In this document: piece after piece, positions 17,500 through 39,120 of the stretch
Layout of the letters: each line of letters begins with the position of its first letter
Position numbering within the stretch: position 1 is the first letter of the stretch
DNA from: Bacteroidia bacterium
Lineage (GTDB): Bacteria > Bacteroidota > Bacteroidia > Chitinophagales > JAUHXS01
NCBI GenBank assembly: GCA_030426955.1
Contig: JAUHXS010000006.1
Span: forward strand, 62,001 to 126,000
Length of the DNA: 64,000 bases
Reading direction: 5' to 3'
Position numbers and translations under genes: made by a program
The notes under the pieces: model-generated
What the model was told of the DNA's origin: nothing
Databases searched by the model: none
The model's input: the letters and a program-made list of their open reading frames with translations, nothing else

Positions 17500-17916
17500 A
17501 TGAAGAGAGCTCACATTATAGCATTAGTCGTTATTGCCATTGCCATTGCCGCGATTATTAGTTTGGTGAATGATGCGAGCACTTACGTGAATTTTTCTAC
17601 AGCTCAGCTGAATGAAGGCAAGGAGTTTCATGTAGTTGGGGAACTATCCAAAGACAAACCACTGGAGTATAATCCAGAGGTCAATCCAGATGAGTTTACG
17701 TTTTATATGAAAGATAATGAGGGTGAGGAAAGAAAAGTGATCTTAAATGCTTCCAAACCTCGAGATATAGAAAAATCTGAGAATATTGTCGTGATTGGTA
17801 AAATTCAAGGAAAAGAGTTTATTGCATCAAGTCTTCTAATGAAATGTCCTTCTAAATACGTAGATGGCGAGCTTCAGACTATGGAAACCAAAATAGAAGT
17901 TAATTCTAAATTATAA
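17500..17916 (+). CDS. ccmE: Cytochrome c maturation haem chaperone, CxxxY-type CcmE
   Basis: A 138-residue membrane-anchored OB-fold protein: one N-terminal helix (5-25), then a small beta domain with VVGELSKDKPLEY, FTFYMKDNEGEERKVILN and VVIGKIQGKEFIASSLLMKCPSKY. CcmE holds haem covalently before delivery to apocytochromes c. The classical HxxxY haem site is here C116-P-S-K-Y120, the CxxxY form described for some sulfate reducers and archaea. No other ccm gene is adjacent. The di-haem peroxidase in this window is a possible client of the pathway. Domain assignment is fairly secure; haem binding is inferred. Confidence 0.85.
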   Translation: MKRAHIIALVVIAIAIAAIISLVNDASTYVNFSTAQLNEGKEFHVVGELSKDKPLEYNPEVNPDEFTFYMKDNEGEERKVILNASKPRDIEKSENIVVIGKIQGKEFIASSLLMKCPSKYVDGELQTMETKIEVNSKL

Positions 17917-17994: not shown

Positions 17995-18002
17995 TATCTT
18001 TG
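17995..18002 (+). promoter_or_regulatory. Candidate -7 promoter box (TATCTTTG) for the caspase/SpoIIE operon
   Basis: Perfect TAnnTTTG match 27 nt before the ATG at 18030. A TTTG at 17977-17980 lies 14 nt upstream, closer than the usual -33 spacing. Confidence 0.45.
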
Positions 18003-18029: not shown

Positions 18030-20381
18030 ATGAAAAAAATACTATCAAATTGCCTATTAATTCTTGTTTTGATGGCCTTAAGTGTTAGTCTCATGGCACA
18101 GTCTGCAAAAAAGTATTTCAAAACGGCAGAAAAATTTAAAGAAGCCAAGGAATATCCTAGCGCCATTACAAACTATACAAAAGCTATTGATTTAGATCCA
18201 GATTTAGTTGACGCCTATGTAAGCAGAGGCGAATCCTATATGGCTGAGGAAAATAATAAAGAAGCTATTCGTGATTTTGAAAAAGCTATAGCGCTAGACA
18301 TTAAGTCAAAGAAGGAGCTTTATTTGAAAATTGGAATGTTGCAAGCAAAAGAAAAAGAGTATGACAAGGCCGTTGAGGCGTATAACCAAGCAGCTAAGCA
18401 AGATAAAAAATATTTTGAGCCACATTTGAAGAAGACAGCCCTGCTTTTAGATATGGGCAAATATAATTCTGCCAAAGAATCTGCTGACTATGCCATTGCA
18501 CTAGATGATAAAAACCCTTGGGCATATTATTATAGAGGAAAGGCGCAATATAATCTGGAGTTATATAAGGATGCGAAAAGTTCTTTTCAAAGAGCTATTG
18601 CGCTTAAAAGTAGAGTCAAATATTTTCATTTAGCTTTAGCAGAGACATTGCATAAAATGGGTGGTGACGAAAGGGCGATGTTTGATCAATACAAAAAGGT
18701 AATCTATCTTGATCCTAATGATCCTGAGGCATATACCTATAGAGGAATTGCTTACAGAGAGACAGCAAAATATACCGAAGCAATAGATGATCTAACAAAA
18801 GCGATCACGCTTGATCCAGAATATTTATCTGCTTTTTTAAATAGAGGACTAGTTTACTTCAAAACAGGAAAGTACCAAGATGCCATAAACGATTTTACCA
18901 AAGTAATTGTGTTGGATAGTGAATATGCAAAAGCGTATTATCATAGAGGTGCTAGCTATCAACAAATGAATGAACCTAAAAGAGCCTCTCAAGATTATAA
19001 GTTGGCCATTAAATATGCAGGAGATGATAAGGAATTAGCAGTTTTATTGAAAGAAGCTAAAGGTAAGATGTATGAGCTAAATAGAGAGCTAGATAAACCC
19101 GAAATTGTTATAGAAAACCTAGTAACAAAAGGGACAATTATCGAAATTCCAGACCAGTTAAAAACAATTGTCGTAAAAGGGAAAATAAAAGATGCTAGTA
19201 ACATAAAATCGATTATTGTCGACGGCAATGACGCTACCTTTTCTGTAGATACTATTAATCCGAGCTTTCAAGCTGAAGTTAAGCTAACTTCTTCAACCTC
19301 ATTAGTAGAAATAAAAGCAACAGATGTTTATGATAACACTACAGCGACATCGTACAAGGTGAAGAGAACAGAGACCAACCTCCCTGTTGTAAAACTTTTA
19401 GCTCCGTATGCATCTGATAATAATGAAGTTTATTTAGATGCAGATAATCCTGAAATATACGTGGAAGGGAAGATTAAAGATGCAAGTTTGATTAGATCTA
19501 TAGTAGTAGAAGGGGCAAATGCTGGTTTTTCATTAACGGAGTTAAACCCTGCTTTTTCAGCGAAAATAAATATTACCAATAAAGCTTCTTTTTCTGTCAT
19601 AGTAGAAGATATCTATGGTAATAAAAGTGAAAACGAATACAAAATAAAAAGAGAAGGAGTTGACTTAGCTGATAATCCAATGGGCAAGACATGGGTCGTA
19701 TTTATTGAAAATGCGGACTACAAAGATTTTGCCAACCTCAAAGGTCCGACTAATGATGTAGCTAAGCTGAAAAATGCATTTGCAGGATATAAATTTAGCA
19801 ATATTATACACAAACGTAATATGAGCAAAGCAGAGATGGAGAAGTTTTTTGCGATAGAGCTAAGAGACTTAATCCGAACAAACAGAGTAAAATCTTTATT
19901 AGTTTGGTATGCTGGTCACGGAAAGTATCTCTTTGAGACAGGATATTGGATTCCTGTAGATGCTAAGAACGGAGAGGAGTTTACTTACTATAGTGTAAGT
20001 GCCTTAAAAGCTGCATTACAAGGATATAAAGATGTGGTACATACCTTAGTCATTTCTGACGCTTGTGAAACAGGCGATGCCTTCCTATTGGCTATGAGGG
20101 GTAGCGGCAAGAAAGTTTGTGATGATTGGAAAGCCACGACATTAAACTCATCTCAGGCATTAACGTCAGCTGGTTTAGAATTGGCCTCTGATGAATCTAT
20201 ATTTACCAAAACGTTTGTGAATATTTTGAATGGGAACAAAAATAAGTGTATTCCAATTCAGGATTTTGTAGCTCCAATCACGAGTGCGGTTACGGCTAAT
20301 CAGCAGCAAAAACCTAAGTTTGGTCCTATTAAAGGGCTTAATCACAATCCAAATGGAACATTCTTCTTCATAAGAAGATAA
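18030..20381 (+). CDS. Exported TPR protein with C-terminal caspase-like domain
   Basis: The frame is open from 17988, but ATG 18030 starts a signal peptide (MKKILSNCLLILVLMALSVSLMAQ has the right form), giving 783 residues. Residues 25-336 hold about nine TPR repeats (A.nyTKAIdLDPdlvdAY pattern). Two related beta-sandwich segments follow (about 361-446 and 451-541; both contain the block VxGKIKDAS...SIxV). The end (552-783) is a caspase/peptidase C14 fold with WVVFIENADYKDFANLKGPTNDV, the catalytic His in LVWYAGHGKYL (H630) and the Cys in LVISDACETG (C679), so the dyad is intact. A periplasmic or surface location follows from the signal peptide. The next gene starts 4 nt later, so the two are one operon. 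Confidence 0.88.
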   Translation: MKKILSNCLLILVLMALSVSLMAQSAKKYFKTAEKFKEAKEYPSAITNYTKAIDLDPDLVDAYVSRGESYMAEENNKEAIRDFEKAIALDIKSKKELYLKIGMLQAKEKEYDKAVEAYNQAAKQDKKYFEPHLKKTALLLDMGKYNSAKESADYAIALDDKNPWAYYYRGKAQYNLELYKDAKSSFQRAIALKSRVKYFHLALAETLHKMGGDERAMFDQYKKVIYLDPNDPEAYTYRGIAYRETAKYTEAIDDLTKAITLDPEYLSAFLNRGLVYFKTGKYQDAINDFTKVIVLDSEYAKAYYHRGASYQQMNEPKRASQDYKLAIKYAGDDKELAVLLKEAKGKMYELNRELDKPEIVIENLVTKGTIIEIPDQLKTIVVKGKIKDASNIKSIIVDGNDATFSVDTINPSFQAEVKLTSSTSLVEIKATDVYDNTTATSYKVKRTETNLPVVKLLAPYASDNNEVYLDADNPEIYVEGKIKDASLIRSIVVEGANAGFSLTELNPAFSAKINITNKASFSVIVEDIYGNKSENEYKIKREGVDLADNPMGKTWVVFIENADYKDFANLKGPTNDVAKLKNAFAGYKFSNIIHKRNMSKAEMEKFFAIELRDLIRTNRVKSLLVWYAGHGKYLFETGYWIPVDAKNGEEFTYYSVSALKAALQGYKDVVHTLVISDACETGDAFLLAMRGSGKKVCDDWKATTLNSSQALTSAGLELASDESIFTKTFVNILNGNKNKCIPIQDFVAPITSAVTANQQQKPKFGPIKGLNHNPNGTFFFIRR

Positions 20382-20385
20382 CTCG

Positions 20386-23300
20386 ATGCAATTGTTGGAT
20401 TTTAATAAGCTTAACACATATAAGTCAGTCACATTGCTCAAATGCTTGATATGCTTAAGCTTTGTTCTGAACGTCTTTTGGAGTAAAGCACAAACCAACA
20501 TTTACAATAATTACAACTCAGAACGTGGCTTACCTCAATCTAAGGTATATGCTTTAGCACAAGATAGCCTAGGATATTTGTGGGTTGGCACCAAGGGCGG
20601 TTTAGCTAAGTTCAATGGTTTAACATTTGAGACTTATACGGTCGATGAGGGAATGGGCGAAGACATTGCGACACAAGTTCTAGTTGATGAGCAAAACAAT
20701 GTGTGGATAGGACATGAAGGAGGCAGTATATCTGTTATTAAGAAAGATACTATTATATCTTACAGGTTTAAGTTACCGAAAAGTGAAGAATACCTTAAAT
20801 CAAGGATTCACAAGCTATTTCTAGACAGTAAAGGTAAGCTGTGGATTGGAACAGGAGAAGGGTTGATTATTATCAATGATAAAGACAAGTCATTAGATGA
20901 TCCGTCTAACTTTCAATTTTGGAATTTTGATAGTGGTTTGAGCGATATTGTTCTGGATATTCTGGAGGACAAACAAGGGAAGATGTGGCTAGTAACCACA
21001 AATGGCATCAAAACGTGTAATAGTGATGCCTTTCCATTCGAGACTTTTTTAGCAGAGGGTTTTGTCTCCACCCAATACCTTACTATTTACGAAAGTAAAG
21101 ATGGCACTATATGGTTTGGAGCTTTAAATAAAGGGCTGGCTAAGTTTGATCATAAAGAAAGCCAAGTAACTTATTTCCATGAGGGGTTAAAAGACCGTTG
21201 GATTACAGACATTATTGAAGATGATCATGACGACATTTGGGTCTCTACTTGGAGAGGAGGTATTGCGAAGTTACAAAACAATAAGTTCAGGACGATAGGC
21301 ATTCAAAATGGATTGAGTGACTATGCGGTAAGGTGTATGTTGCTAGATCAGGAAAATAACATTTGGATAGGAACAAATGAAGGTGGCTTGGACTACTATA
21401 AAGGAGAAATGTTTATAAACTACTTAGAGGGAGGAGTCTATGTAAATGACGCTGCTACAGCAATTCATCAAACAGTTTCAGGAGATTGGTGGATTGGGAG
21501 TAATAAAGGCATAACGATATTATCGAATACAGATGGGAATCTTAATGCTAGACAATTTAAATTGAATAGTCTAATTCAAGGAAAATCTGTTGATGCAATT
21601 CAATCGGATAATAGCGGTAATGTTTGGATAGGCGTATTTGAGCTAGGTGTCATCAAATACAATGTTAATAGTGGGAAGCATGAGATTTATAATGTGGGCA
21701 ACCATCTAATTAGTGACTTTATTACTACAATCGCCATAGATAAAGATCAGAATGTTTGGATTGGAACCAGACAAGGAATCACTAGGTACAACAGCAGAAA
21801 TAAGACTTATGAGAACTTCGGTCATGTAAATGGTCTTGCCTCCGACAAGGTTACCCAAATATTTGAGGACTCAAAAGGGCGAATATGGATTGGGGGAGAG
21901 TCTGGCGATGGTTTGACGGTCTGGGAGAATGCAGCTTTTAAGGTATATGGTACGGAAGATGGCATGACGCATCACAGTCCATCTTCCGTTACTGAAGATC
22001 AAAGTGGCAATATTTGGATAGGAACAGAAGGAAGAGGAGTCTTCAAGTTTGATGGCAGCTCTTTTACTAGCCATCGGGTTAAAGATGGATTATTATCAGA
22101 TTTTATTTTGTCTATTATAGCTGATAATGATGGTAATGTATGGATTGGTACACATCAAGGGCTATGTAGGCTTGATGCTAATAAAGGAGCTTTTACAAAC
22201 TATGGGAAGCAAGAAGGATTTCTGGGAGTTGAAGCAAAGCAAAATGCTGTATTTAAGGCAAAGGATGGAAGTATTTGGTTTGGTCATGCCAAAGGTTTTT
22301 GTATTTACAATGCGAATAATAGTAAAAATATTAATGCTCCTAAACTTCGCATAAAGTCATTCTATGCTAATTATGAATCAATTAACATTGGCTCAGAAAT
22401 TGTACTTGACCATGATCAAAATCAAATTAAAATAGAGTATTCTGGGCTATACTTTTCAAATCCTACTGGATTGAAGTACTCCTATATGCTTGAAGGCTTA
22501 GATAATGCAAATTGGTCATACCCTGAAACAAAAAACAGTATCACTTTCCCAGCCCTTGCTTATGGAAATTATACTTTGAACGTAAAAGCGATTAATAGTC
22601 AGGGAATAGAAAATAAAAACGACGTAAAAATAGCTTTTACTATAAGGCCCCCGTTTTATTTAACCTCATGGTTTTTGATATTGTGCGTCATTGTGGTTGG
22701 GGCAACTACTTTTGGGTTTATTAGTTGGCGAACACAAAAGCTGAAAAGAGATAAGCAAATACTAGAAGAAAAAGTAGCTGAGAGAACAAGAGAACTGGAG
22801 GAAGAGAAAAAGGTAGTAGAGGAACAAAAAGAGGAGATTGCTGAAAAAAATAAGGATATCACGGATAGTATCAAGTATGCGGAAAAGATACAGACTTCCA
22901 TATTGCCTATGCAAAAAGATATTGCAACAGCATTCCCAGAATCTTTTGTGCTTTACAAGCCAAGGGATATCGTAAGTGGGGACTTCTATTGGTTTAAAAG
23001 GAATAATGATGAAGCTTATATTGCAGCGGTCGATTGTACTGGTCATGGTGTTCCAGGTGCATTTATGTCTATGATAGGCTATTCTCAGCTTAATCAAATT
23101 ACAGGACAAGGTAAGCAAACAGAACCCGCTAAAATATTAGATGCACTTAGTGATGGTGTTAGGACAGCATTACGTCAAACCGAATCCGAGGACTCGGCTA
23201 AAGACGGTATGGACTTAGCCTTATGTAAATTGAATTTAAAGAGTAATGAGCTAACTTTTTCCGGCGCTTACAGGCCACTTTATTTATTAAAAAATGGAGA

Positions 23301-23607
23301 AATAGAAGAGGTAAAAGCTGATAAGTTTCCCATTGGTGGAACAGATGAAGGCAATGAATATACCGATAAACAGATCAAACTAGAGAAAGGGGATGCGATT
23401 TACATCTTCTCAGACGGATACCCTGATCAGTTTGGAGGAGAAAAGGGAAAGAAGTTTATGACCAAACGGTTTAAAAACCTACTGGTTGAAGTAATGAATG
23501 AACCCATGGATAAGCAAAAAGAAATATTAGACGAGCAAGTTGAGTCTTGGCGTGGCAATCTAGAGCAAGTAGATGATATATTGGTCATAGGAATCAAAAT
23601 TACATAA
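20386..23607 (+). CDS. Two-component-type propeller sensor with SpoIIE/PP2C phosphatase domain
   Basis: A 1073-residue transmembrane sensor. Signal peptide 1-36 (ends SKAQ). Residues 40-650 are at least twelve Reg_prop repeats (D..GNVWIGT..GL.r yn pattern) forming two beta-propellers. A Y_Y_Y domain follows (about 665-745; LKYSYMLEGLDNANWSY). The membrane helix is at about 761-782 and a charged coiled coil at 785-835 (EEKVAERTRELEEEKK). The cytoplasmic end is a PP2C phosphatase of the SpoIIE class with GDFYW, AAVDCTGHGVPGAFM, DGMDLALC, FSDGYPDQ and VDDILVIGI, including the metal-binding Asp residues. Signal-dependent dephosphorylation of a cytoplasmic partner, such as a STAS protein, is inferred; none is encoded nearby. 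Confidence 0.92.
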   Translation: MQLLDFNKLNTYKSVTLLKCLICLSFVLNVFWSKAQTNIYNNYNSERGLPQSKVYALAQDSLGYLWVGTKGGLAKFNGLTFETYTVDEGMGEDIATQVLVDEQNNVWIGHEGGSISVIKKDTIISYRFKLPKSEEYLKSRIHKLFLDSKGKLWIGTGEGLIIINDKDKSLDDPSNFQFWNFDSGLSDIVLDILEDKQGKMWLVTTNGIKTCNSDAFPFETFLAEGFVSTQYLTIYESKDGTIWFGALNKGLAKFDHKESQVTYFHEGLKDRWITDIIEDDHDDIWVSTWRGGIAKLQNNKFRTIGIQNGLSDYAVRCMLLDQENNIWIGTNEGGLDYYKGEMFINYLEGGVYVNDAATAIHQTVSGDWWIGSNKGITILSNTDGNLNARQFKLNSLIQGKSVDAIQSDNSGNVWIGVFELGVIKYNVNSGKHEIYNVGNHLISDFITTIAIDKDQNVWIGTRQGITRYNSRNKTYENFGHVNGLASDKVTQIFEDSKGRIWIGGESGDGLTVWENAAFKVYGTEDGMTHHSPSSVTEDQSGNIWIGTEGRGVFKFDGSSFTSHRVKDGLLSDFILSIIADNDGNVWIGTHQGLCRLDANKGAFTNYGKQEGFLGVEAKQNAVFKAKDGSIWFGHAKGFCIYNANNSKNINAPKLRIKSFYANYESINIGSEIVLDHDQNQIKIEYSGLYFSNPTGLKYSYMLEGLDNANWSYPETKNSITFPALAYGNYTLNVKAINSQGIENKNDVKIAFTIRPPFYLTSWFLILCVIVVGATTFGFISWRTQKLKRDKQILEEKVAERTRELEEEKKVVEEQKEEIAEKNKDITDSIKYAEKIQTSILPMQKDIATAFPESFVLYKPRDIVSGDFYWFKRNNDEAYIAAVDCTGHGVPGAFMSMIGYSQLNQITGQGKQTEPAKILDALSDGVRTALRQTESEDSAKDGMDLALCKLNLKSNELTFSGAYRPLYLLKNGEIEEVKADKFPIGGTDEGNEYTDKQIKLEKGDAIYIFSDGYPDQFGGEKGKKFMTKRFKNLLVEVMNEPMDKQKEILDEQVESWRGNLEQVDDILVIGIKIT

Positions 23608-23609
23608 GA

Positions 23610-24080
23610 ATGGAAGAGGTTTATAACTATTTATATATCATTGGACTAGTTGGGTATTTTATCTACAAGACCTTCTTTAAGGCGAAGAAGGATAATGCAA
23701 AAAAGAAGCCTGCAAAGAGGGATAAAGGTGAAATGAATCCATACGAGGTGCAAGAATTTGAAAGTGTCGAAATGACAGATTTCGAAGTTGAAAAGGAACA
23801 ACAAGAACGGTACACAGAGTTAAAGAAGAGAATTACACCGATAAGCTCAGCTACGGAAAAGAGCACTCATAAACCTACCTTTGATAAAGATGCTATTGAT
23901 AATATGCGAAAAATGGATGAGGAACTATCCATTAAAAGCAAGTCAAGAAAGAGAGAAATAAGTAAATCAAAAATAAAATCCGCAGAAATCGTGAATGAAG
24001 AGATGTCAGATGAAGAGGCCTTTGATCTTAGACAAGCAGTGATCAATAAAGTAATTTTAGACAGACCATATATCGATTAA
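23610..24080 (+). CDS. Small charged single-helix membrane protein
   Basis: A 156-residue protein I do not recognise as a named family. Residues 6-22 (NYLYIIGLVGYFIYKTF) form one membrane helix with positive charges after it, so the rest is probably cytoplasmic. That part is highly charged and disordered-looking, with Lys/Glu-rich segments. It ends with a conserved-looking helix, DEEAFDLRQAVINKVILDRP. The gene begins 2 nt after the SpoIIE-domain gene and abuts miaE with no gap, so it is translated as part of the operon. It could be an adaptor for the sensor or unrelated. Confidence 0.7.
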   Translation: MEEVYNYLYIIGLVGYFIYKTFFKAKKDNAKKKPAKRDKGEMNPYEVQEFESVEMTDFEVEKEQQERYTELKKRITPISSATEKSTHKPTFDKDAIDNMRKMDEELSIKSKSRKREISKSKIKSAEIVNEEMSDEEAFDLRQAVINKVILDRPYID

Positions 24081-24662
24081 ATGTTAGGATTAAAGTTACC
24101 TACAGATCCGAGATGGGTAGAATTAGTCGAATCAAGCTTGGAAGATATTTTAACAGACCATGCTTATTGCGAGCAAAAAGCAGCTTCTCAATGCGTTTCA
24201 TTGATTGTTCAATATCCTGAAAAAGAATTGCTAGTAGAAAAATTAGCACCAATAGTTACAGAAGAATGGGGACATTTTAGAATGGTTTTGAGAGAGTTGA
24301 AGAAACGAAACCTAAGACTAGGTGTGTCTAGAAAAGATGAATATGTTAATAAACTCAATAAGTTTATTCGCAAAGGCGGATCCAGGGAAGAACAACTATT
24401 AGAAAAGCTATTGGTTTGCGCATTGATAGAAGCAAGAAGTTGTGAAAGATTTCGCTTGCTTTCTGAAAAATTGGCGGAAGAAGAATTAAAGCAGTTCTAT
24501 CGTGAGTTGATGATTGCAGAAGCAGGGCATTATCGACTTTTTATAGACCTTGCAAAATCATACCTTTCTGAAGAAAAGGTAAAAGAAAGATGGCAAGATT
24601 ATTTAGATCATGAGGCGGAGATTATGAAACAATTAGAATTAAGAGGCGATCGAGTACACTAA
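24081..24662 (+). CDS. miaE: tRNA 2-methylthio-N6-isopentenyl adenosine-37 hydroxylase
   Basis: A 193-residue di-iron enzyme of the ferritin-like fold that hydroxylates the isopentenyl group of ms2i6A-37 in tRNA. Helical iron-ligand motifs are DHAYCEQKAASQ (Glu in a four-helix bundle), VTEEWGHFRMVLRE (ExxH), LVCALIEARSCERF and MIAEAGHYRLFIDLA (ExxH). Length matches the family. It is the last gene of the 18030-24662 tight run, which is likely an accident of transcription rather than function. No miaA or miaB lies in the window. Confidence 0.93.
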   Translation: MLGLKLPTDPRWVELVESSLEDILTDHAYCEQKAASQCVSLIVQYPEKELLVEKLAPIVTEEWGHFRMVLRELKKRNLRLGVSRKDEYVNKLNKFIRKGGSREEQLLEKLLVCALIEARSCERFRLLSEKLAEEELKQFYRELMIAEAGHYRLFIDLAKSYLSEEKVKERWQDYLDHEAEIMKQLELRGDRVH

Positions 24663-36258: not shown

Positions 36259-39120
36259 ATGAGTGAGTTAAAAGAATCATATACCATTCAAGATTTAGAA
36301 AATATCTCTATCTACGGAGCAAGAGAAAACAATTTGCAGGATATAGATGTTGAGATTCCCCGAAATAAGTTGGTTGTCATCACAGGAATTAGTGGTAGTG
36401 GGAAATCCTCACTAGCTTTTGATACTATCTATGCTGAAGGGCAAAGACGATATATGGAAAGCTTTTCAGCGTATGCAAGGCAATTTATTGGCAGTATGGA
36501 GGCGCCCGATGTAGATAAGATAGAAGGTCTAAGCCCTGTCATTTCCATTGAGCAAAAAACGACTAATAAAAATCCGAGATCAACTGTTGGCACCGTTACA
36601 GAAGTGTATGACTTTATGCGTTTGTTGTATGCCAGAGTGGGAGAGGCCTTTTCTTATGTAACTGGTAAAAAGATGGTTCGGTATACAGATCAGGAATTGG
36701 TCGACCATATTCTCGCTAAATACGATGGGAAAAAGGTGCTAATTCTCGCTCCTTTAGTAAGAGGTCGCAAAGGACACTATCGAGAGTTATTTGAGCAGCT
36801 CAGAAAACAAGGGTTTTTAAAAATACGAATAGACGGCGAAGTTGTGGATATAGAACCGAAGATGCAAATCGATCGATATAAGATTCATGATATCGAGGCT
36901 ATTACAGATAGACTGAAAATTGATCAAGACGATCGAGCAAGATTAGCAAAGTCTATTGCATCTGGAATGAAGATGGGTAATGGCTTGATTATGATCATGG
37001 ATCATGAAACTAATGAGACAACTGTATTTAGTAATCAACTAATGTGTCCAGATTCAGGAGTCTCTTATGAGGAACCATCGCCTAATACCTTTTCCTTTAA
37101 CTCTCCTTACGGTGCTTGTCCCCATTGCAATGGAATGGGAGTTATTAAGGAGGTCTCTGAAGAGTTAATTATCCCTGACTATAGTAAAAGTATTAATGAA
37201 GGCGGCTTGGCACCACTTGGCGAGTATAAAGACACTTATACATTTAAGTATGTCAGGGCAATTGCTGATACGTATGGATTTAGTTTTGCAGAACCGTTAA
37301 AGAAATTTTCTGAAAAGGCAATTCATACCATTATGTATGGGTTAGCTGAGGGAGAAAAACTAAAAGTTCCAGTTAAGTTTGGTGCAAATAATAGACAGGT
37401 ATATGATCTAGAATTTGAGGGGTTGGTCAATATGTTGCATCGGTATTATAACGAAACCTCATCCGATTCAATCAGAAAGTGGGCAGAGGATTTTATGGTT
37501 CAGAATGAATGTTCTGAGTGCCGAGGACATCGATTGAGAAAAGAATCGCTTCATTTTAAAGTAGCCGAAAAGAATATTGCTGATTTAGTAAAGCTAGATT
37601 TAGATCAATTATATGAATGGTTTGAGGAGGTAGAGGTCAAACTTTCAGATCGTCAAAAGCTGATAGGGAAAGAAGTTTTAAAAGAAATCAAAGAGCGATT
37701 AGGCTTTTTGCTAGACGTGGGACTTAATTACTTAACACTAGACAGGGCAACGAGAACATTATCTGGCGGAGAGTCGCAGCGAATACGTCTTGCCACTCAA
37801 ATTGGGTCTCAACTTCAAGGGGTTACTTACATTTTAGATGAACCTAGTATCGGATTGCATCAAAGAGACAATGAAAAGCTTATCGGTACATTGCAAGACT
37901 TAGTAAAGATTGGCAACTCTGTTTTAGTAGTTGAACATGACAAAGAGATCATGTTGCAATCTGACTATATCATTGACATTGGACCTAATGCTGGAAATTA
38001 TGGTGGCAAGATTGTTGCTAAAGGAACGCCAAGTGAGATTTTAAAGTCTAATTCTAAGACAGTTGACCATTTAAGCGGAGCAAGCGATATTGAAATTCCT
38101 GAGAAACGCAGAACTGGAACTGGAAAGATATTGAGTTTAGAAGGAGCAACAGGAAATAATTTAAAAGAAGTAAAGGCAGACTTCCCGCTTGGCGTTATGA
38201 TTTGTGTGACAGGTGTTTCAGGCAGTGGTAAATCCAGCTTAGTCAATGAGACTTTGTATCCGATCCTCAATCATCACTTTTTTAGGGCAAAGAAGAAGCC
38301 ATTGCCATATAAAAAAATTACTGGTTTGGAATATGTAGACAAAGTGATTGAGATCGATCAGTCTCCGATTGGTAGAACACCAAGATCCAATCCTGCCACT
38401 TACATTGGTGTGTTTACGGATATTAGACAATTGTATGCTAATCTACCCGAGGCCAAAATTAGAGGATATAAGCCTGGTCGTTTTTCTTTTAATGTCAAAG
38501 GAGGACGATGTGAAACTTGTGAGGGTGGGGGAATGCGTGTAGTAGAGATGAACTTTCTGCCTGATGTTTATATTGAATGTGAAACTTGTTTAGGAAAACG
38601 CTACAATAGAGAAACCTTGGAGGTTCGATACAAAGGAAAATCTATTAGTGATGTACTGGACATGAGCATAGCGGAAGGAGTTGAGTTTTTTAGTGAGATT
38701 CCATCAATTTATCGAAAGTTGAAAACATTACTAGATGTGGGATTGGGCTACATAACTTTGGGTCAATCTGCCACGACTATTTCTGGAGGGGAAGCACAAC
38801 GTGTAAAGCTCGCGTCAGAACTTTCAAAAAAAGATACTGGTAATACCTTTTACATCTTAGATGAGCCAACAACAGGGTTACACTTTGAAGATATCAAGAA
38901 GTTGCTAGAAGTACTCAATAAACTAGTAGATAAGGGCAATACGGTATTGATTATTGAACATAACTTGGATGTCGTCAAAGTCGCAGATCACATTATTGAC
39001 ATTGGACCAGAGGGGGGATCAGGAGGAGGAACAATCGTTGCTAAGGGAACTCCAGAAGAAGTTAGTAAATCAAAACAAGGGCATACAGCACGATTTTTAA
39101 GAGATGAATTGAAGTTGTAA
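36259..39120 (+). CDS. uvrA: Excinuclease ABC subunit A
   Basis: A 953-residue dimeric ABC-type ATPase that recognises bulky DNA damage and loads UvrB in nucleotide excision repair. The first Walker A is [10 protein letters not shown], followed by [20 protein letters not shown]; the second is [15 protein letters not shown]. Both signature motifs ([12 protein letters not shown] and [12 protein letters not shown]) and Walker B segments ([28 protein letters not shown]) are intact. Zinc modules show [24 protein letters not shown] and CETCLGKRY. Full length and apparently monocistronic. Confidence 0.98.

Follow-up and report, generated by a model that had tools for sequence, protein, structure and literature searches.

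A caspase-like protein and its propeller-SpoIIE sensor form a long-kept gene pair that points to an undescribed signaling pathway across the cell envelope of Bacteroidota

The window analyzed here is a stretch of 64,000 nucleotides from the genome of a Bacteroidia bacterium (GenBank GCA_030426955.1). Within it, genes for a caspase-like protein, a large membrane-bound sensor, a 156-aa protein, and a MiaE-like tRNA hydroxylase follow one another on the plus strand, separated by 4, 2, and 0 nt, respectively (Table 1). An ORF check returned the reading frames, the 4-nt and 2-nt spacings, and the catalytic residues H630 and C679 as an earlier sequence-only reading of this DNA had given them; the caspase frame opens with an ATG at 18030. 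Absent from that reading were the MiaE-like fourth gene, immediately after the 156-aa ORF, and two Ig-like domains between the TPRs and the caspase domain. Sigma-70 and terminator scans at the locus gave matches no more than chance, and a single TAnnTTTG motif, at 17995, lacks a clear -33 element. A gene for a CcmE-domain-like small membrane protein lies shortly before the pair on the same strand (17500-17916); no other cytochrome c maturation genes were seen among those of its neighbors that were read. A defense-system reading of the locus was dropped, as PADLOC gave no credible match.

Table 1 Genes, domains, and catalytic codons of the caspase-sensor locus, in window coordinates.
Feature	Position	Strand	Basis
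TPR-Ig-Ig-caspase protein, 783 aa, exported (predicted)	18030..20381	+	ORF, Pfam, AF2 pLDDT 81
Signal peptide, residues about 1-23	18030..18098	+	Hydrophobic N-terminus
TPR superhelix, residues 26-350	18105..19079	+	Pfam TPR, AF2 helices, fold matches
Two Ig-like beta-sandwich domains, residues 358-541	19101..19652	+	AF2 secondary structure
Caspase (C14) domain, residues 551-783	19680..20378	+	Pfam PF00656 53.7 bits; AF2
Catalytic His630 codon	19917..19919	+	Invariant, 71 aligned sequences
Catalytic Cys679 codon	20064..20066	+	Invariant, 71 aligned sequences
Propeller-Y_Y_Y-TM-SpoIIE/PP2C sensor, 1073 aa	20386..23607	+	ORF, Pfam, PDB profile, AF2
Periplasmic (predicted) Reg_prop propellers, residues 40-650	20503..22335	+	Pfam; PDB 4a2l, 3v9f; AF2
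Y_Y_Y domain, residues 655-753	22348..22644	+	Pfam, AF2
Membrane/signaling helix, residues 761-796	22666..22773	+	AF2
Cytoplasmic (predicted) SiaA-type PP2C, residues 843-1072	22912..23601	+	Profile vs PDB 6k4e
156-aa single-helix protein, neighbor outside module	23610..24080	+	Relatives in other contexts
MiaE-like tRNA hydroxylase, neighbor outside module	24081..24662	+	Pfam MiaE 153.7 bits

The product of the first gene matches the Pfam Peptidase_C14 model well above its cut-off (53.7 vs 21.4 bits) and carries an intact His-Cys dyad, with H630 within YAGHG and C679 within SDACETG; both traits place it with the C14 caspases and orthocaspases. An AlphaFold2 (AF2) model built with the orthologue alignment (mean pLDDT 81, lower inside the caspase domain) begins with a signal helix, followed by the TPR superhelix, the pair of Ig-like sandwiches, and, at the C-terminus, the caspase fold (residues 554-783). 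Of the 131 orthologues that could be scored, 130 have an N-terminus resembling a signal peptide. The caspase domain is the best-conserved part of the protein, at 55% as compared to 23% for the TPRs. It matched the MALT1 paracaspase weakly in a PDB search (E 1e-4), and a fold search with the whole model returned TPR superhelices as the best matches, which swamped all others.

The sensor contains Reg_prop repeats, a Y_Y_Y domain (Pfam score 50.7, cut-off 26.6), and a SpoIIE domain (66.9, cut-off 25). Its AF2 model (pLDDT 85) runs from a signal helix through the propellers and Y_Y_Y to a single long membrane helix, a coiled coil, and the PP2C domain. The first 756 positions of a profile of linked sensors match BT4663-type propeller structures, and the remainder matches the SiaA-PP2C structure 6k4e with an E-value of 3.8e-68. 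Acidic residues D883, D940, D943, D1010, and D1064 are present in 59/59 linked sensors and D866 in 58/59, and together with the domain score they identify the window sensor as a SpoIIE/SiaA-type PP2C protein. Against the SiaA equivalog model NF038263 it scores 232 bits over its C-terminal part only, below the NCBIfam cut-off of 700. A link to the T9SS was considered and dropped, the PorZ model match being below its cut-off and spanning propeller repeats only. Among the residues specific to linked sensors, no conserved basic cleavage site was evident. The signal peptides, the one sensor helix, and the C-terminal caspase domain give a predicted topology that fits a caspase outside and a phosphatase inside.

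The third gene had been read as lying in one operon with the other two. It does not belong to the module, as its relatives in seven other genomes lie in other contexts. Distant relatives of the 156-aa protein (23610-24080) occur in several genomes of the order, never beside the caspase pair elsewhere; the strongest local match falls on a C-terminal stretch near VILDRPYI in one relative and on the helix stretch in another. A MiaE-like gene beside the pair was likewise not seen in orthologous loci. Other caspases were encountered along the way. Small exported ones of about 260 aa, without TPR or Ig domains, lie upstream of the pair at four loci (L094, L097, L102, L112), in tandem with the large caspase, and without an adjoining large copy at three (L212, L213, L215). 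The window genome has a second exported caspase (L056:7995-9689; G000:C11, about 425 kb), in which two beta-rich repeats, weakly DUF2846-like, precede the caspase domain, and which has no SpoIIE neighbor. A pairing with caspases in general was rejected, since a SpoIIE neighbor is lacking at 12 further caspase loci in the window's order.

The Ig-caspase part served as query in a first scan, which covered GTDB species genomes and returned 76 loci, mostly at 42-56% identity, from Bacteroidales, Flavobacteriales, and other Bacteroidota metagenome-assembled genomes (MAGs); two are labeled Chlorobiota. In 70 of these loci, the gene that immediately follows the caspase on its strand encodes a propeller sensor; one of the remaining loci is cut by a contig edge and five are without a sensor. 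The second scan covered 395 genomes of the window's class, with caspase orthologues in 50 genomes (23/197 genera). With the window genome excluded, 28 of its 29 strongest loci were judgeable, and the sensor is present in 21 of the 28; most of the weaker matches and extra paralogues are solo or, in one genus, cyclase-linked. In the two samples combined, a median of 8 nt separates caspase and sensor, and SpoIIE-type linked copies are found in nine families, the window's own included. The window's order departs from this pattern: none of 397 other sampled genomes of the order has a match beyond 1e-24 (orthologue strength; E-values of the genome-contig scan are relative to the candidate stretches only), and the window's own caspase and sensor copies sit on long branches. 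An 1836-aa frame in G753 had the appearance of a caspase-sensor fusion and was set aside, there being two separate genes at that locus.

The outer neighbors of the pair vary, with 18 families upstream and 19 downstream, and by eye the flanking genes are mostly housekeeping (for example ribD, thioredoxin, dnaE, and queD). No further conserved effector gene was found beside the pair among orthologous loci. Because the outer genes differ between loci, the pair rather than the region is the conserved unit. MAG assembly errors could make single loci misleading, but not the overall pattern. Co-occurrence across Bacteroidota was a check set beforehand, and a pair limited to this strain or its close relatives would have counted against the proposal. 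The pair is kept well beyond them, with the sensor in place at 70/76 loci and in at least nine families of the class. We are highly confident that the pairing is real, ancient, and functional, and functional coupling of caspase and sensor is well supported.

In a tree built from the periplasmic half of the sensors, one group (support 95/83) unites the caspase-linked sensors and the cyclase-bearing ones described below with the window sensor and three from family f24; the 13 other propeller-SpoIIE proteins of the comparison set fall outside it. A quick sensor tree of 83 rows likewise sets the linked sensors apart from paralogues, and in linked genomes the best match of the window sensor is the linked copy, despite the many SpoIIE proteins there. 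In family f24, the caspase gene is unlinked and the sensor orthologue lies on a different contig. The orthologue was found in 4/4 examined f24 genomes with an intact dyad (G399, G445, G481, G674) and is missing in 5/5 with a destroyed dyad (G513, G543, G573, G600, G627), G513 having just a weak partial match. That f24 keeps both genes though they are unlinked argues for a shared function.

The catalytic His and Cys are both kept in 85/85 scoreable SpoIIE-linked copies. Among copies without a linked sensor, 16/24 keep both residues and 8/24 do not. Dyad losses map to three events on the tree, none of them in a SpoIIE-linked copy, three being too few for significance. Intact-dyad solo orthologues occur in family f83, among f49 paralogues, and at L091, L123, and L148, and given these copies it appears that the caspase can work without a linked sensor. 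Family f49 (L197-L203) combines a linked intact caspase with several solo paralogues, and in three of the latter the Cys is replaced by Thr (DATETG). The solo intact caspases of f83 (L261, L262, L264) lie near a gene for an MFS-HEAT-cyclic-nucleotide-binding membrane protein, directly adjacent in two loci and beyond an inserted large gene in the third; this neighbor is possibly another partner swap.

The one genus with cyclase-linked copies, g173 (family f30), retains the TPR and Ig domains, and its Cys is replaced by Ala or Val, with Cys present in 0/24 copies. In the copies read, the caspase-fold protein stops shortly past the Cys position. The linked sensors keep the propellers, Y_Y_Y, and the membrane helix. 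All four that were read to their ends have a class III nucleotide cyclase as output domain; Pfam confirmed it in one of the four and in one further genome. The caspase-fold gene is present in 42/45 genomes of the genus, and tblastn located a propeller downstream of it in 30/30 loci examined. In the periplasmic-half tree these sensors nest within the SpoIIE-linked clade, which indicates that the output domain was swapped. A pairing that has outlived both the loss of Cys and the exchange of output suggests that the two periplasmic halves belong together whatever the output.

As to the SpoIIE-type output, 56 loci extend 1.5 kb or more beyond the sensor, and in six of them (L100, L120, L135, L140, L147, L149; Pfam was run on two of the six) the next two genes encode a DUF6272 (SiaB-type) protein and SiaC. 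The six group in the caspase tree (support 94 in one tree, 74/60 in another), and the extension is probably one lineage. SiaB and SiaC are absent next to the window pair, and the window genome holds four SiaC and six DUF6272 matches away from it. The earlier proposal to look for a partner elsewhere in the genome yielded a likely SiaB/SiaC system, both there and in some orthologous operons. In P. aeruginosa, SiaC is phosphorylated by SiaB and dephosphorylated by SiaA (PMC7647112); in its unphosphorylated form, SiaC activates SiaD, a cyclase (PMC8457831). The SiaB/SiaC linkage and the SiaA-like PP2C, combined with this pathway, make a SiaC-type phosphoprotein our best guess, by analogy, for the target of the SpoIIE-type sensor. 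The SiaC and DUF6272 matches of the window genome include a locus (L069; G000:C11:72500-83000) that encodes, in this order, a TPR membrane protein, two propeller-SpoIIE sensors, a DUF6272 (SiaB-type) protein, and SiaC; its sensors are paralogues of the window sensor with likely partners. At L187 (G000:C19), a SiaC-family gene (match 37959-38309) starts about 12 nt past an apparent ftsZ, a neighbor that might link SiaC regulators to cell division.

Our preferred reading, held with moderate confidence, is that the cytoplasmic output is controlled by the caspase protein, working together with the propeller receptor or upon it. The TPR-Ig-caspase protein and the sensor propellers would both be periplasmic. 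In the SpoIIE version, the caspase would cleave either the receptor or a ligand or bound inhibitor; in the cyclase version, the caspase-fold protein would serve as a non-cutting binding partner. Either event would alter the activity of the output domain, the change being relayed by the one membrane helix and the coiled coil. The PP2C domain would most likely dephosphorylate a SiaC-type regulator phosphorylated by a SiaB-type kinase, and in the window genome the SiaB/SiaC homologues for this route would be those encoded away from the pair. The pairing, its conservation, the orthology, the domain order, the conserved residues, and the SiaB-SiaC extension of some relatives can be read from the sequences themselves; from them we infer physical contact, signal direction, substrate, stimulus, and downstream effect of the module. 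The original proposal of one envelope signaling route for caspase and sensor is supported by the spread of the pair across at least nine families and by the fitting predicted topology. More tentatively, these proteins may constitute a new receptor class, in which a periplasmic caspase, dedicated to this task, gates the double-propeller ectodomain of a transmembrane phosphatase; in a natural offshoot, the gated output would be a nucleotide cyclase and the caspase a dead one. If true, this would be protease-triggered transmembrane signaling built from a caspase and acting outside the cytoplasm.

It is unlikely that control runs the opposite way, with the sensor converting a periplasmic signal through the phosphatase into expression of the operon and the caspase serving as the effector, either an envelope protease or a self-destruct enzyme. 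Tight, operon-like spacing would suit such an arrangement, and it is common for the propeller sensors of polysaccharide utilization loci to share one locus with an effector; yet a catalytically dead caspase, as g173 keeps by its sensor, would be needless for an effector protease, which weakens this alternative, and no further conserved effector gene accompanies the pair. Less likely still, in our view, is a main role for the caspase-fold protein as a co-receptor that binds ligands or provides a scaffold through its TPR and Ig domains, with proteolysis incidental. The g173 pseudo-caspase, persisting in 42/45 genomes and sensor-linked in 30/30 loci examined, fits a scaffold, but the invariant dyad of the 85 scoreable SpoIIE-linked copies and the higher conservation of the caspase domain than of the TPRs do not. 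Co-transcription only, for dosage or expression of two genes in separate processes, is improbable: while solo caspase orthologues do exist, the pair persists amid changing neighbors, is co-retained when unlinked, and involves a dedicated sensor clade. Chance adjacency in the window genome is highly improbable and, despite the many SpoIIE genes there, has nothing in its favor after the orthologue scan, given the 70/76 paired loci and the lack of a SpoIIE neighbor at 12 more caspase loci from the window's order.

Control of the receptor by the caspase protein remains our preferred reading, and the long-kept pair points to an undescribed signaling pathway across the cell envelope. Bacterial caspases are widespread, few of their natural partners are known, and discussion of them has mostly concerned cytoplasmic cell death or phage defense. 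A fixed orthologous signaling partner across many Bacteroidota, combined with the predicted periplasmic site, makes a caspase pathway directly testable, and the cyclase/pseudo-caspase branch is a natural comparison for separating a binding from a cutting role of the caspase fold. The pair also ties propeller sensors to SiaB/SiaC partner switching in Bacteroidota. In line with the earlier statement that no described system was known to have this pairing, we found no paper in the open-licence PMC literature that joins a caspase with a propeller sensor; a single paper there mentions SpoIIE, caspase, and Bacteroidetes together, and its subject is receiver domains. The pair is an undescribed combination of known parts.

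These parts resemble several known systems. MALT1, in which Ig domains also precede the caspase domain, is the weak sequence match noted above; unlike the protein described here, it is eukaryotic and cytosolic and is without TPRs or a sensor partner. Metacaspases and orthocaspases share the C14 fold and the His-Cys dyad (PMC3501461, PMC6426788). TPR fusions and pseudo-variants are known among prokaryotic orthocaspases, the latter mostly from Alphaproteobacteria and Cyanobacteria in surveys (PMC3501461, PMC6426788). The fixed propeller-SpoIIE partner sets the present proteins apart from those surveyed, and SpoIIE and propellers go unmentioned in these two surveys of bacterial caspases. The SiaABC(D) system of P. 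aeruginosa (PMC7647112, PMC8457831) likewise has a membrane-bound SiaA/SpoIIE-type PP2C phosphatase with a SiaB-type kinase and SiaC; genes for the latter two adjoin the sensor gene in six relatives and lie away from it in the window genome. The P. aeruginosa system differs in its input half, which here is a BT4663-like double propeller plus Y_Y_Y coupled to a predicted periplasmic caspase, and in its cyclase, no SiaD-type enzyme being seen by eye beside the SiaC genes examined in the window genome. The Bacteroidetes HTCS (PDB 4a2l, 3v9f, 3ott) have the same periplasmic Reg_prop propellers, Y_Y_Y, and single membrane helix. Pfam found SpoIIE only, and none of the HTCS output domains, in the cytoplasmic half of the window sensor; in place of the histidine kinase, receiver, and AraC domains of HTCS, the output is a PP2C or a class III cyclase, and the partner gene is a caspase and not a glycan-degradation locus.
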